A stretch of 64,000 nucleotides of DNA from Coriobacterium glomerans PW2 (GTDB lineage: Bacteria > Actinomycetota > Coriobacteriia > Coriobacteriales > Coriobacteriaceae). The notes below the pieces were generated by a model that was given only the letters and a program-made list of their open reading frames with translations, made no database searches and was not told where the DNA came from. A program made the translations under genes and the position numbers. The DNA is taken from contig NC_015389.1 of the NCBI RefSeq assembly GCF_000195315.1, positions 558,001 through 622,000 on the forward strand, given 5' to 3'. Shown here piece by piece: positions 15,752 through 51,219 of this stretch (within the stretch, counting starts at the first letter, position 1; every line of letters starts with the position of its first letter).

Positions 15752-15785
15752 CGACACTCATCTCTGTCTTCAGAGATGAGTGTCG
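15752..15785. other. Strong 15-bp hairpin between dhaM and the glycyl radical enzyme gene
   Basis: CGACACTCATCTCTG (15752-15766) and CAGAGATGAGTGTCG (15771-15785) pair perfectly with a TCTT loop. It lies 97 bases after dhaM and 20 bases before the downstream start. No T-tract follows. Its position inside the frame extended to 15715 argues against that longer start. Confidence 0.6.
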
Positions 15786-44852: not shown

Positions 44853-45770
44853 TCAGCGCGATCCCTTCTCATAGGGCGTTCCATCGGCTTTCGGCGCCAC
44901 CGATTTGCCCACGAAGACGACGAGCACCACAAGCGTCAGCACGTAGGGCAGAAGCGCCAGGATCTGACTCGGCACCGCGATCGCCCCACCGCCCAGAACG
45001 ACGGTCAGCGCCTGAGCCATTCCGAACAGCAGGCACGCGCAATACGATCCCTGCGGCGTCCACTTTCCGAAGATGACCGCCGCGAGCGCGATGAAGCCCT
45101 GGCCGGATACGGCGGTGATCGAGAACTGCGAGCTGATCGCGAGCGTGATCGAGGCTCCGCCCAAGCCTGCGAGCACGCCGGAGATCACGACGCAGACGAA
45201 GCGCGTTCGACTGACGTTGATTCCGAGCGTGTCCGCCGCAGCGGGATGCTCGCCGACCGATCGTATGCGCAGGCCCCACTTCGTCTTGTAGAGCACGAAC
45301 CACATCGCGACGGCGGCGGCCAGTCCGAGCACGACCGTGGAATCGACGTTCAGATTCGCCCACGGCGTGTCCGAGAACGCGTTCGCGCCGAAGACCTTGG
45401 GAAGCCCGGCCACGGCTGGCGATTGCGTGCCGCCCCAGAAGAGCCTGGCGATGAACAGCGCGAGTCCCGGTCCGAGCAGGTTGAGCGCGATTCCCGACAC
45501 GTTCTGATCGGCTCGGAACACCACGGCTGCCAATGCGTGGAGCACGGCGAACACGCCTCCGCAGACGCCTGCGGCGAGAAATCCCAACCATGGATCTCCG
45601 CTCAGATAGGTCCCGGCGACACCGGCGAGCGCACCGATGTTCATCATACCCTCGATGCCTATGTTGACGACACCGGAGCGCTCCGAGATCGTGCCGCCGA
45701 GCGCTCCGAACACAAGCGGCGTCGAGTACATGAGAGTGATGCCGATGAGCAGCGTCACGTTATTGAGCAT
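44853..45770 (-). CDS. nupQ: Nucleoside ABC transporter permease (NupQ type)
   Basis: A 305-residue permease of the branched-chain/nucleoside type with about eight to ten hydrophobic segments. The ISERSGVVNIGIEGMM block near the N-terminus and LRIRSVGEHPAAADTLGI loop are typical of the smaller BMP-linked permease. AAGGAGG precedes ATG 45770. Overlaps the larger permease gene by 11 bases. Confidence 0.92.
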   Translation of the reverse strand: MLNNVTLLIGITLMYSTPLVFGALGGTISERSGVVNIGIEGMMNIGALAGVAGTYLSGDPWLGFLAAGVCGGVFAVLHALAAVVFRADQNVSGIALNLLGPGLALFIARLFWGGTQSPAVAGLPKVFGANAFSDTPWANLNVDSTVVLGLAAAVAMWFVLYKTKWGLRIRSVGEHPAAADTLGINVSRTRFVCVVISGVLAGLGGASITLAISSQFSITAVSGQGFIALAAVIFGKWTPQGSYCACLLFGMAQALTVVLGGGAIAVPSQILALLPYVLTLVVLVVFVGKSVAPKADGTPYEKGSR

Positions 45771-47037
45771 CGGTGCCGCCTCCTTGTCGAGCGTCGCGTC
45801 GATCTTCGCCTGGAGCTCTAGAGCATTCGCTTTCGCGTTCCGCAGCGCTCGCCTCTTCCGTCATCCGCTCAGCCGGCGGCGGGGGCGCGGCGCCATCCTC
45901 GGAGCCGAGGCGATGCGCCTCGCGTTCGGCGCGTCTCTCGAGTCGAGACGTCAGAATCGAGAAGACGTGCTTGAGCGCAACGAAGAACACGATCGTGCCG
46001 ATCATGATGTTGATGATCTCGGTCGGCGCCCCGACAGCGAGCTGCATGTTCTGGCCGCCGTAGATGAGTCCGCCGAACAGCAGACCCGCGGGGATGCAGG
46101 CCAAGGGGGATGAGCCGGCGATGAGTGCGACCGAGAAGCCGTTGAAGCCGTTGTTCTCGAAGGCGGCGAGCGTGGCCAGGGAGTGCGGCTGCATTCCGGT
46201 TATGACGAGCGCGCCGGCGAGTCCCGAGATGGCCCCGGCGAACGTCATGGCGCAAAGCATGCTTCTCTGCACGCTGATGCCTGCGAATTCAGCCGCATCG
46301 CGGTTGAAGCCGACAGCGCGCAGCGCGAAGCCGAACTTCGAGCGATGCAACATGAACCACGCGAGCGCGGCCACGAGAATCGCTGCGACGAACATGATGT
46401 TCACATCGGGCCGCACGAGAAAGTCCTGCAGCCAGTCCATGCCGCGCAGCATATCCTGTCCGGCTCGTGAGATCTTCCATTCGCCGAGAATCGTCGTGAA
46501 GCTCGAAGGGGACACCGCGAGGCTTCCGGTCGAATTGGGCCGATGGTAGAGATCTGACATGACGATGAAGTTGTTGATGTAGAGCATGATCCAGTTGAGC
46601 ATGATCGCCGTGATGACCTCGTGTATGCCGAAGCGCGCTTTGAGCTCGCCGGTGATGGCGCCTATGATGGCTCCGCCGGCGACGCCCGCGAGCACCACGA
46701 TCGGGATCTGAATCGGCGCCGGCAGGTCAAGCTTGGCGCCGACGAGCACGGCGCAGACCGCGCCGGCGATGTATTGTCCCTCCGCGCCGATGTTGAACAG
46801 ACCGGTTTTGAACGCGAAGGCGACCGAGACGCCGGTGAGAATGATAGGCGACGCTTTGATGATCGTATTGGAAATGTAGCGGGGACGCGACAGGATACCC
46901 TGAAAGAGCGCCGTGAACGATGCTCCGGGATCGAACCCGGCAGCGCCGAGCAGAATCGCGGCAACGATGAAACCGAGCAGAATCGCGGCAAGTGTACCGG
47001 TGATGGGCCGTCTGGCCACCTTGATCAGAGTCCTCAT
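45760..47037 (-). CDS. nupP: Nucleoside ABC transporter permease (NupP type)
   Basis: A 425-residue permease pairing with NupQ. The FNIGAEGQYIAGA and LRAVGFNRDAAEFAGI blocks mark the larger BMP-system permease. The C-terminal 60 residues (from about 365) are a charged, Arg/Glu/Pro-rich tail that is longer than usual. ATG 47037 overlaps the ATPase stop as ATGA. Confidence 0.92.
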   Translation of the reverse strand: MRTLIKVARRPITGTLAAILLGFIVAAILLGAAGFDPGASFTALFQGILSRPRYISNTIIKASPIILTGVSVAFAFKTGLFNIGAEGQYIAGAVCAVLVGAKLDLPAPIQIPIVVLAGVAGGAIIGAITGELKARFGIHEVITAIMLNWIMLYINNFIVMSDLYHRPNSTGSLAVSPSSFTTILGEWKISRAGQDMLRGMDWLQDFLVRPDVNIMFVAAILVAALAWFMLHRSKFGFALRAVGFNRDAAEFAGISVQRSMLCAMTFAGAISGLAGALVITGMQPHSLATLAAFENNGFNGFSVALIAGSSPLACIPAGLLFGGLIYGGQNMQLAVGAPTEIINIMIGTIVFFVALKHVFSILTSRLERRAEREAHRLGSEDGAAPPPPAERMTEEASAAERESECSRAPGEDRRDARQGGGTDAQ

Positions 47038-48563
47038 GATTGCGATCCTCCCGCCATGAGCAGGCCGAGCAGGTTCTCGTCTATCTGCCCCTGTTTGAAG
47101 GTGCCCACGATCGCGCCCGCGTAGATGACAGCGATGGTATCCGCAACGTTCATGATCTCATCGAGTTCGAGTGAGACGAGCAGGACCGCCGCTCCCCGGT
47201 CGCGCTCGGCGATGAGCGTCTCGTGCACATAGGAGATGGCGCCGACATCGAGACCGCGCGTGGGCTGGGCGGCGACGAGTACGTCAGGGCGGCTCTCGAT
47301 CTCGCGGCCGATGATGATCTTCTGCTGGTTGCCTCCGGACAGGCTCGCAGCCGGAAGATCGGCGCAGTCAGCCGGACGCACATCATAGTCGCTGATGAGC
47401 TTTGAGGTGTACGCGTCGATTCGCCTGCGATCGAGCATCCCGTTGGATCCGAAGCGCGCATCGCGATAGCCCTCGAGGATCGTGTTTTCGGCCACGGTGA
47501 ACGGAAGCACGAGACCGCGGCGCTGCCGGTCGTCGGGGATGGTCGCGACACCGTGCTCGAGAACGTTTCTCGGCGTCGTGTTCTGGATCTCGCTGCCGTG
47601 CACGGAGATGGTGCCGCTTCGCGCGCGGGTGATGCCGGCGATCGCATCGACCAGCTCGCGCTGTCCGTTTCCGTCGATGCCGGCCACGCCGACGATCTCA
47701 CCGGCGCGCACGGCGAGCGACAGACCCTTCAAGGCAGCGAGACCCCGTTCGTCATGCGCGACGAGGTCTCGGATCTCCAACACGACCTCACCGGGATCGG
47801 CCGGTGTCTTCTCTACGATGAGGCTCACGTGGCCTCCGACCATCTTCTCGGCGAGCTGCTGCTCGCTGACGTCTGCCACGCGCACCGTGTCGATGTAGCT
47901 GCCGCGCCGTATGATGGTGCACATCTCGGAGGATGCCTTGATCTCGCGCAGCTTGTGCGTGATGATGATGATCGTCTTTCCGCGGGAGGCGAGCGCGTGC
48001 ATGATGTCCACCAAGCGGTCAATCTCCTGAGGAGTGAGCACGGCGGTGGGCTCATCGAGAATGAGGGTCTGCGCGCCGCGAAAGAGCGCTTTCAGTATCT
48101 CGACGCGCTGCTGCATGCCCACGGAGATATCCTCGACCTTGGCATCCGGGTCGACTTCGAGACCGTACTCGGAGATGATCTTCTGCACCGCTTCGCGGGC
48201 GCGATTCATGTCGAGCAGCCCGGGCCCGCGTGTGATCTCATCGCCTAGAATGATGTTTTCGGTTACGGTGAAGTCGTCCACGAGCATGAAGTGCTGATGG
48301 ACCATGCCGATACCGGCGGCGATCGCGTCGGCGGGGCTGTTGATATCGGTCGGTCTGCCATCGAGAAAGATCGTTCCCTCTTCGGCTTGATACAGACCGT
48401 AGAGTATGTTCATGAGCGTGCTTTTTCCTGCACCGTTCTCGCCCAGGATCGCATGCACGCTGCCTCGTCTGATATCGAGGTGCACATGATCGAGAGCGGT
48501 GAAGGAGCCGAACTGCTTGACTATGCCATGCATCTGCACGGCATAGCGAGGGTCGGGTTCCAT
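47034..48563 (-). CDS. nupO: Nucleoside ABC transporter ATPase (NupO type)
   Basis: A 509-residue protein with two fused ABC domains energising nucleoside import. The first has Walker A GENGAGKST and Walker B TLILDEPTA; the second has the altered loop GIDGNGQREL and signature LSGGNQQKI, as in sugar/nucleoside importers of this family. AGGAGAGGAGACAC precedes ATG 48563; the longer frame to 48698 crosses the upstream hairpins. Confidence 0.94.
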   Translation of the reverse strand: MEPDPRYAVQMHGIVKQFGSFTALDHVHLDIRRGSVHAILGENGAGKSTLMNILYGLYQAEEGTIFLDGRPTDINSPADAIAAGIGMVHQHFMLVDDFTVTENIILGDEITRGPGLLDMNRAREAVQKIISEYGLEVDPDAKVEDISVGMQQRVEILKALFRGAQTLILDEPTAVLTPQEIDRLVDIMHALASRGKTIIIITHKLREIKASSEMCTIIRRGSYIDTVRVADVSEQQLAEKMVGGHVSLIVEKTPADPGEVVLEIRDLVAHDERGLAALKGLSLAVRAGEIVGVAGIDGNGQRELVDAIAGITRARSGTISVHGSEIQNTTPRNVLEHGVATIPDDRQRRGLVLPFTVAENTILEGYRDARFGSNGMLDRRRIDAYTSKLISDYDVRPADCADLPAASLSGGNQQKIIIGREIESRPDVLVAAQPTRGLDVGAISYVHETLIAERDRGAAVLLVSLELDEIMNVADTIAVIYAGAIVGTFKQGQIDENLLGLLMAGGSQS

Positions 48564-48612
48564 GTGTCTCCTCTCCTGAAGGGCAAAACAAAGCGCTCGC
48601 CGATCTTGTGGA

Positions 48613-48678
48613 CGTCCCGTGGCGGAGACCTGCAACGAGGTCTCCGCCACGGGACGGCTCGCGTCCGCGAGCCGTCCC
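48613..48678. other. Two overlapping, mutually exclusive hairpins between the BMP and ATPase genes
   Basis: CGTCCCGTGGCGGAGACC (48613-48630) pairs perfectly with its complement at 48639-48656 (18 bp, 8-nt loop). GGGACGGCTCGCG (48651-48663) pairs with CGCGAGCCGTCCC (48666-48678; 13 bp). The two structures share GGGACG at 48651-48656, so they cannot form together. They fill the gap between the lipoprotein stop and the ATPase start and may set the ratio of binding protein to transporter. Confidence 0.65.
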
Positions 48679-48711: not shown

Positions 48712-49794
48712 CTACTTCTCGAGCTCTGCGTGCCAGGTGTCGTACTGCTTCTCGTTCGCGGGCGGCTTCACGTCACCTTTTTTGATCTTGTCCATCAGTT
48801 TCTGGGCGGCATCGTAGACCTTGTCGTCCATGAGATCATGCTCGGGCGCCAGGCCGACGGCGCCGTCCTCCATGCCGAGCGTGATGGTCTTGCCACCGAG
48901 CTTCTCGCCCTTGCGAATGCGTTTCGAGATGTCCACCACGGCTGTGTCCACGTTCTTGAGCGCCGAGGTCAGCATATTCTTCGGCGCATACCGGTACTGG
49001 TCGGAGTCGACGCCGATGATGAGCTTGTTCGCGTCCTTTGCGGCATCGATGACACCCTTGCCGGCACCACCCGCGGCGTGGAAGATGACGTCGCAGCCAT
49101 CGGAGTACATCTTGGCAGCGATCGCCTTGCCCTTCGCCTCATCGGTGAAGCTCTCGGTGTACTGCGAGCTCACGGTCACATTCGTCCCGTTTTCCTTGTT
49201 CGCGTAGTCGACACCCGCTTTGTAGCCCCACTCGAACATATCGACGATGTCGCTGACCTGCCCGCCGACGAAGCCGACCTTACCGGTCTTGGATTGGCTC
49301 GCAGCGATGAATCCGGCGACGAACGAGGACTCCTGTGAGCGGAACATCAGCCCGGTGAGGTTGGAGATGGAGGTGTCACCCGCATCGTCGATGATCGCGA
49401 AGTTCACATCGGGGTTCTGCTTGGCAGCCGTCTTCACCGCATCCGCCATCGCGTAGCCGACGCCCCAGACGAGGTTGTTTTTGCCGTCGACGGCGCGATC
49501 GAGGTTCGTGGGATAGTCGCTTTCCTGCTTGGACTCCGTGTAGCCGACCTTGACGCCTCCGTCCTTCTCGAGCTTCTGCAGGCCCTCCCAAGACAGCTGG
49601 TTGAACGACTGATCGTTCACGCCGCCCACATCGGTCACCATCGAGATCTTGTACGTGCCGCCGCCATCGGCTGCCGACCCTGTCGACCCTCCACCTTTGT
49701 TCGCCGTTCCGCCGCATGCGACCAGTGTCGCCGCGACGACGATGCTGGCAGCTCCCGCGACGAGCGTCTTGCCGATTCCGCCGATCTTTCTCAT
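48712..49794 (-). CDS. bmpA: BMP-family nucleoside-binding lipoprotein
   Basis: A 360-residue substrate-binding lipoprotein (Bmp/PnrA family). The signal peptide ends in the lipobox LVACGG (Cys27 lipidated), followed by a Gly/Ser linker. The binding domain begins ISMVTDVGGVNDQSFNQLSWEGL, the family signature, and includes HAAGGAGKGVID. AAGGGA precedes ATG 49794. It delivers nucleosides to the permeases encoded downstream; high expression relative to them is expected. Confidence 0.94.
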   Translation of the reverse strand: MRKIGGIGKTLVAGAASIVVAATLVACGGTANKGGGSTGSAADGGGTYKISMVTDVGGVNDQSFNQLSWEGLQKLEKDGGVKVGYTESKQESDYPTNLDRAVDGKNNLVWGVGYAMADAVKTAAKQNPDVNFAIIDDAGDTSISNLTGLMFRSQESSFVAGFIAASQSKTGKVGFVGGQVSDIVDMFEWGYKAGVDYANKENGTNVTVSSQYTESFTDEAKGKAIAAKMYSDGCDVIFHAAGGAGKGVIDAAKDANKLIIGVDSDQYRYAPKNMLTSALKNVDTAVVDISKRIRKGEKLGGKTITLGMEDGAVGLAPEHDLMDDKVYDAAQKLMDKIKKGDVKPPANEKQYDTWHAELEK

Positions 49795-49869
49795 ACCGTT
49801 CCCTTCAGTTGCTCGCAGAGATACTCTGCTATCGGATTGCCTTGCCACGCCCGTACCAATCCAGCGGCA

Positions 49870-50601
49870 TCACGCTCCTTCGCTGCTCGTCGCAGCGATA
49901 GACAGCGCGATCTCCATCATCTGCGTGAAACCGGTCTGGCGCTCGGAGGCGTCCAGGGATTCACCGGAGAGGGGAAGGTCGGAGACGGTGAGCAGGCACA
50001 GGGCCCGTTTGCCGGCGCGCGCGGCGTTCATGTAGAGGGCGGCCGCCTCCATCTCGACGGCCAGCACGCCCATCTTGCGCCACCGCTCGGTGGAGGAGGG
50101 ATCGTCCAGGTAGAAGTGGTCGCTCGACAAAACGTTGCCCACGCGCACGTCGACGCCGCGCTCGCGGCCGGCGTCGACGGCGGCCGCGAGCAGTCCGAAG
50201 TCGGCGATGGGCGCGAACGTCCCGGGCAGCTCGTAGTGTGCGGCAAAAGCCGAGTCGGTGCAGGCTCCCATGCCGGCCACGACGTCCTTCAGACCGACGT
50301 CTGACGCCACCCCGCCGGCTGAACCCACCCGGATGATAGCGCCCACGTCGTAGAAGTTGAACAGCTCAAAGGAGTAGATGCCGATCGAGGGCATGCCCAT
50401 GCCGCCGCCCATGACCGTGACGGGGGCTCCTTGGTAGACACCTGTGAAGGCGAGCATGTTGCGCACCTCGTTGACGCAGCGGACATCGCTCAGATAGGTG
50501 TCTGCGATGAATTTCGCACGCAGGGGGTCGCCCGGCATGAGAACGGTCTTCGCGATGTCGCCGGCGGCGGCACCGATGTGCGGGGTGGGAGCAGATCCCA
50601 T
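49870..50601 (-). CDS. deoD: Purine-nucleoside phosphorylase (DeoD type)
   Basis: A 243-residue hexameric-type purine nucleoside phosphorylase. N-terminal PTPHIGA, LMPGDPLRAKFIA, the RVGSAGG phosphate loop, VEMEAAALY and SDLPLSGE (catalytic Asp) blocks are all present. AAAGGAGATGGGCC precedes ATG 50601. It is the first gene of the nine-gene minus-strand nucleoside cluster. Confidence 0.96.
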   Translation of the reverse strand: MGSAPTPHIGAAAGDIAKTVLMPGDPLRAKFIADTYLSDVRCVNEVRNMLAFTGVYQGAPVTVMGGGMGMPSIGIYSFELFNFYDVGAIIRVGSAGGVASDVGLKDVVAGMGACTDSAFAAHYELPGTFAPIADFGLLAAAVDAGRERGVDVRVGNVLSSDHFYLDDPSSTERWRKMGVLAVEMEAAALYMNAARAGKRALCLLTVSDLPLSGESLDASERQTGFTQMMEIALSIAATSSEGA

Positions 50602-50689: not shown

Positions 50690-51025
50690 GCTCCGAGCTG
50701 TGGAATGTTGGTTGGCGCTGCAGAAGGCCATGAGCACGCGAGCGATCGCGTGCGCTCGCTTTGACCATCTCGATCTTTATCCCATTCGCACCCTCGGGTG
50801 CTGAGGTGGCCATGCTGGAGAATCTCGATTTCGTTGAAATCAGGCAGCTTGATACGCGGCGGAGCAATGATGAGGAGCTTGAAGGTGCATTGGCGCTCAT
50901 CAATTGAGCTGGAGAATCTGAGCAGAAGGTCTTCTTCGAAGGCTAGGTTTTCGTTGCGTTCGGCAGACTGGCTGAGGTTCGAATGCTATCGTCTGAGGAA
51001 TGCTATCGACCGAGAATGCGGCGCA
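50690..51025. other. Gene-poor spacer between deoD and pcrA, possible gene remnant
   Basis: No intact gene is supported here. A plus-strand frame reads PSGAEVAMLENLDFVEIRQL and ends at TGA/TAG-type stops around 50906, with coding-like composition but no start or homology I recognise; it may be the tail of a lost gene. GAATGCTATCG occurs twice (50981-50991 and 50998-51008), each near a CTGAGG. Confidence 0.35.
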
Positions 51026-51090
51026 GATGCGCGTTTTTTGACTGAAAATAGGGGGTTATTTTCAACTGAGGTAGTCAAAAAGCGCGCATC
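51026..51090. other. Large inverted repeat, possible ncRNA or mobile-element structure
   Basis: The outer arms GATGCGCGTTTTTTGACT (51026-51043) and AGTCAAAAAGCGCGCATC (51073-51090) pair at 17 of 18 positions. An inner pair GAAAATA (51044-51050) and TATTTTC (51057-51063) extends the stem across a GGGGGT loop, with a bulge on the 3' side. A/T and G/C blocks alternate. The 5' side also has GCGCA-GA-TGCGC before six T, a terminator-like element. Confidence 0.55.
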
Positions 51091-51219
51091 TTTGTGGGGT
51101 AATGGGAGCGGCTGTGGCTGCGCGGGACGATGGGCAGCGCGGGACGCGGGCGATGAGCATGGACCACTCGAGTGCCATGTCATATGTATGCGAATCGTCG
51201 CGCCTTCCGAGTGGGCAGG

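Follow-up and report, generated by a model that had tools for sequence, protein, structure and literature searches.

In cellulolytic clostridia, stem-loops after binding-protein genes, low-U ones included, reduce the downstream transcripts, and the internal terminators of ABC importers are leaky, with long GC stems, few U and variable sequence (PMC9045158). In ABC operons of E. coli, the gene stabilized via mRNA decay is invariably that of the binding protein (PMC5927463). In the E. coli maltose operon, the REP hairpins of the malE-malF intercistronic region lie between the binding-protein gene and the membrane subunits, and they are presumed to stabilize the upstream mRNA against decay (cited in PMC5927463). 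In operons subject to selective RNA processing and stabilization (SRPS), a selected gene has a stem-loop in its 3' region (PMC8219983, PMC4423207). The msiK RNA motif is located in the 5' UTR of an ABC ATPase gene, where a long hairpin interrupted by an 11-nt bulge covers the ribosome-binding site (PMC2864571).

The window, the whole 64,000-nucleotide stretch of DNA that was analyzed, belongs to the genome of Coriobacterium glomerans (one contig, 2,115,681 bases). Pfam domains and the ORF list identified a transporter operon, all of it on the minus strand. It begins with a purine-nucleoside-phosphorylase-like gene (49870-50601, PF01048), followed by bmp, which encodes a PnrA-like substrate-binding lipoprotein (48712-49791; PF02608 Bmp, E 5.5e-80; the ORF list also allows a longer reading from a GTG start at 49848). 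The ABC ATPase gene (47034-48563, PF00005) starts at ATG 48563 behind a Shine-Dalgarno-like AGGAGAGGA at 48569-48577, and two permease genes follow (permease 1, 45760-47037; permease 2, 44853-45770; both PF02653). We infer that the bmp, ATPase and permease genes are transcribed as a single operon. The phosphorylase-like gene, located 5' of bmp on the same strand, points to nucleoside uptake and salvage. The preliminary description had placed two hairpins between the binding-protein and ATPase genes, and this placement was confirmed: the bmp-ATPase gap is 148 nt long and holds both.

On the operon strand, hairpin A is transcribed before hairpin B. Hairpin A (48651-48678) reads GGGACGGCTCGC-GGAC-GCGAGCCGTCCC, and its core CGGCTCG/CGAGCCG is kept in relatives. 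It had been described as a perfect 13-bp stem. The arms (48651-48663 and 48666-48678) are indeed 13 nt long and 100% complementary, but they would leave a 2-nt loop, which is physically impossible, so that A really has 12 bp with a GGAC tetraloop. Hairpin B (48613-48656) reads CGTCCCGTGGCGGAGACCT ... AGGTCTCCGCCACGGGACG and has arms of 19 nt (48613-48631 and 48638-48656) with 100% complementarity and a 6-nt loop; the base is conserved in sequence and the distal stem covaries. The stem was thus perfect and located as first reported, with a length of 19 bp and not 18 bp. The six bases said to be shared by the two stems (GGGACG) were found at 48651-48656. The folding energy of the stretch containing A and B (A+B) had z = -6.7 against dinucleotide shuffles. 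In 464 kb of the genome (400 kb sampled evenly plus the 64-kb window), the B stem was the longest perfect stem, and the next longest had 15 bp. Within the window, the second longest perfect stem was a 15-bp hairpin at 15752-15785, CGACACTCATCTCTG-TCTT-CAGAGATGAGTGTCG.

Like the clostridial internal terminators, A+B follows a binding-protein gene, precedes translocator genes, has a long GC-rich, low-U stem, is variable in sequence and has a presumed role in stoichiometry (PMC9045158). However, the clostridial terminators are single stem-loops with no extra structures (PMC9045158), whereas A+B is made of two hairpins that abut each other and contain a conserved core sequence, with 0-1 U in the 8 nt after B. 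It shares with the malE-malF hairpins the position between a binding-protein gene and membrane subunits (PMC5927463); unlike them, it is single-copy and locus-specific. The likeness to the SRPS operons lies in the position of the stem-loop. The msiK RNA motif is actinobacterial and, like A+B, is a structured RNA that precedes the gene of an ABC ATPase. However, A+B had no Rfam match, and the long hairpin covering the ribosome-binding site is a feature of msiK.

The copy number of A+B was determined by a whole-genome search, a check that the preliminary description had proposed. No further copies of the element sequences were found in C. glomerans, and relatives had one copy per genome, so that the compact repetitive extragenic element suggested there was rejected. 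Among 64 family genomes, four had the pattern CGGCTCG-N(3-16)-CGAGCCGTCCCG, each a single time and in every case at the bmp-ATPase junction. A covariance model, R1, was built from seven homologues (C. glomerans and six others) and matched 48613-48675 as a single copy in the genome. The search of the family with R1 returned the same seven loci, one per genome, with E-values set by construction because the model was searched in its own source genomes; the next independent places had E = 0.1 or worse. In the 64 family genomes, R1 found no convincing copy of A+B outside the bmp-ATPase junction. In 197 genomes of Coriobacteriales, it found no convincing further copy, and the sole extra match was weak (L132, G138:C6:179234-179303; other family of the order; 33.5 bits, E 0.03). 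Ten Coriobacteriaceae genomes contained the operon. Seven of them had homologous A+B exactly at the bmp-ATPase junction; the other three had a weak remnant (L019, 22 bits) or different hairpins (L013 and L015). Close relatives in a wider set of named genomes were only Collinsella tanakaei and C. vaginalis. In the C. vaginalis locus (L014, NZ_LT838844.1), a second, partial bmp copy was observed between bmp and the ATPase gene. The joint reads CTGTCTCTTATCCACN, which we take to resemble a sequencing adapter, and the partial copy is probably an assembly artefact. A plasmid search gave short matches only, confined to the part of the query encoding the ATPase start. Rfam families had no match in the window and gave weak chance matches only, below the gathering threshold, in relatives.

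The pairing was conserved in the seven homologues. In the seven-sequence alignment, 91.7% of cells were paired, compared to 36-46% in the slid-partner controls. The B stem had compensatory changes, affecting both partners, in 10 of its 17 pairs. Of the 7 pairs of the A stem, 5 were invariant. Conservation was 96-98% in the A arms, 91-98% in the A arms and B base together and 64-73% in the distal B stem. The sample was small, with seven sequences related by descent; in it, covariation of A+B exceeded the shuffled and slid controls, which is the mark of a conserved structured RNA. Non-paired A-C cells numbered 8 and G-U cells 4, and these counts favored neither strand as the RNA. A+B was judged to be a real, conserved and locus-specific structured RNA.

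The two hairpins had been called mutually exclusive, in the layout of a two-state RNA switch. This was too strong. Folded to minimum energy, the operon-strand RNA (48610-48677) contained A with 7 bp, B with 18 bp and a closing helix of 4 bp, all coexisting; the closing helix (48610-48613 with 48674-48677) encloses the A core and B. The joint fold had -59.6 kcal/mol, compared to -42.9 for full B alone. When growing transcripts were folded, A formed whole first, and B then displaced only its outer part. The competition between A and B was limited to 6 bp. A extended past its core into the B 5' arm by 4 nt in C. glomerans compared to 0-3 nt in the six other homologues, and the total overlap of 6 nt was seen in this species only among the seven. 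The 6-bp overlap, absent from the six other homologues, was therefore peculiar to this species rather than a conserved switch. B was able to extend 2 nt into the A 3' arm in all seven, and an overlap of 2-3 nt was conserved. Given this overlap, a small branch migration between A and B may still take place. The conserved mutually exclusive helices that characterize a two-state switch were not found in A+B.

The same junction was examined across the order. Each of the 30 bmp-ATPase gaps covered in Coriobacteriales had a longest stem of 12-22 bp, with one mismatch allowed, and the stem sequences were mostly unrelated outside the family. The median fold z of the 30 gaps was -3.7, with 63% below -3, whereas coding controls of the same loci had a median of -0.02, with 1.7% below -3. 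The near-identical loci L068 and L069 had z near -0.6, which meant that the fold excess was strong and not universal. In several relatives of the family, a separate terminator-like hairpin was located directly after bmp, and where A+B was present, it lay 3' of such a hairpin and nearer the ATPase gene. Such a hairpin directly followed the bmp stop in the L013 gap (stem, then TTTTCTTTT) and in the L020 gap (stem ending CCCCGTTTTA); C. glomerans was without it. This position of A+B in relatives, beyond the terminator-like hairpin, suggested that A+B may serve the ATPase side. Among other C. glomerans binding-protein genes, a count that leaves out L129 and L131, three (L127, L128 and L130) had a strong hairpin just 3' of the gene. 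The L127 hairpin had a T-tract, and the L128 hairpin of about 13 bp had none.

A stoichiometry hairpin of an ABC importer operon is a strong stem-loop that separates the binding-protein gene from the genes of the translocator, all on one strand, and A+B has this arrangement. By analogy with the described systems, which A+B matches in place and strength, we consider it probable, at roughly 0.68, that A+B is an intercistronic stabilizer or leaky terminator that sets the binding protein above the translocator. The retroregulation of the lipoprotein mRNA proposed in the preliminary description, understood here as the work of a 3'-end stabilizer or partial terminator, was the best reading, in view of the conserved position, the covariation and the precedent. 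The unmatched stem strength, the strong hairpins at this junction across the order and those just 3' of three other binding-protein genes are also in line with it. A canonical intrinsic (Rho-independent) terminator was considered and rejected: the GC-rich stem was present, but the U-rich tract was missing. The 8 nt that follow B contained 0-1 T in all seven homologues, and the terminator scan did not list B. The lack of a U-tract made stabilization of the bmp 3' end or U-poor partial termination the likely action. Once the ribosome has moved off bmp, the growing transcript would form A and then the very stable B. The A+B fold could stop a share of RNA polymerases, or could block 3'-to-5' exonucleases after the downstream part was cut or decayed; since no U-tract follows B, the exonuclease block is more likely than the polymerase stop. 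The bmp mRNA would then outlast or outnumber the ATPase-permease mRNA, resulting in more binding protein than translocator per cell. We infer both how A+B affects mRNA levels and whether it acts as a stabilizer or as a partial terminator.

Hairpin A and the B base are nearly fixed in sequence, which for A exceeds the needs of a plain stabilizer. Because a plain stabilizer does not explain this near-fixed sequence of A and the B base, a regulated or factor-bound element was kept at a small but appreciable probability. It is unlikely that A+B is a regulated two-state element before the ATPase-permease genes, such as an attenuator or a protein or ligand site (for example, for a purine nucleoside), in which A-B branch migration alters read-through or stability. 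The near-invariant sequence of A and the B base, with pairing only kept in distal B, the small overlap (B 2 nt into the A 3' arm) retained in all seven homologues and the place before the ATPase gene, separate from the bmp-proximal hairpin of relatives, are consistent with it. However, the hairpins coexist in the minimum-energy fold and the 6-bp overlap is not conserved; neither an antiterminator nor a U-tract nor an Rfam family match was found, and in clostridia the corresponding stem-loops occur singly and act constitutively (PMC9045158). It is quite unlikely that A+B is an undescribed cis-regulatory RNA restricted to Coriobacteriaceae, in which the invariant A and core would sense a factor or purine nucleoside and adjust the translocator:binding-protein ratio. 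If true, such sensing would place a stoichiometry hairpin under regulation instead of leaving the ratio fixed.

The perfect palindromes and conserved core could also form a DNA site, either bound by a protein or serving the ATPase genes as an internal promoter operator, and the covariance model matched the reverse strand too, with a lower score. However, the compensatory changes deep in distal B are better explained by selection for pairing than by a fixed protein site, and a scan for one promoter type detected no consensus promoter on the operon strand of the gap. A site acting at the DNA level was thus judged distinctly improbable. REP sequences are dispersed repeats. REP or BIME identity, which needs many dispersed intergenic copies, was rejected for the single-copy A+B. 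Tandem palindromes do resemble REP clusters, but the single copy per genome, the orthologous place in seven genomes, the covariation and the shuffle z make it very improbable that A+B is a REP-like repeat, a mobile repeat or a palindrome that arose by chance. An N-terminal ATPase extension would read from the in-frame ATG 48698 through the hairpins, and this frame was open in C. glomerans. However, stops between the element and the ATPase gene closed it in L015, L016, L017 and L018, no shared peptide was found, and the Shine-Dalgarno sequence lies directly before ATG 48563. The chance that the hairpins are coding was considered negligible.

The stabilizer or leaky terminator favored here bears on the general question of how one operon yields a binding protein in excess of the membrane pump. 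Stoichiometry by an intercistronic hairpin is already known, and the conserved two-hairpin version appears to be undescribed: a tandem, sequence-conserved element with no U-tract was not found in the RNA family library or in a literature search that lay mostly outside subscription journals. Strong hairpins occurred at one junction in every genome examined across the order, with their sequence repeatedly replaced, although one genome family has retained a fixed, covarying element of two hairpins. These loci offer a natural series in which to test whether stem strength, the U-tract or the core sequence sets the ratio, in gut bacteria for which few regulatory RNAs have been described. Elsewhere in the window, an inverted repeat at 51025-51091 (AGATGCGCGTTTTTTGACT; 19 nt, 95% complementary, 29-nt spacing) was observed just 5' of a UvrD/PcrA-like helicase gene.
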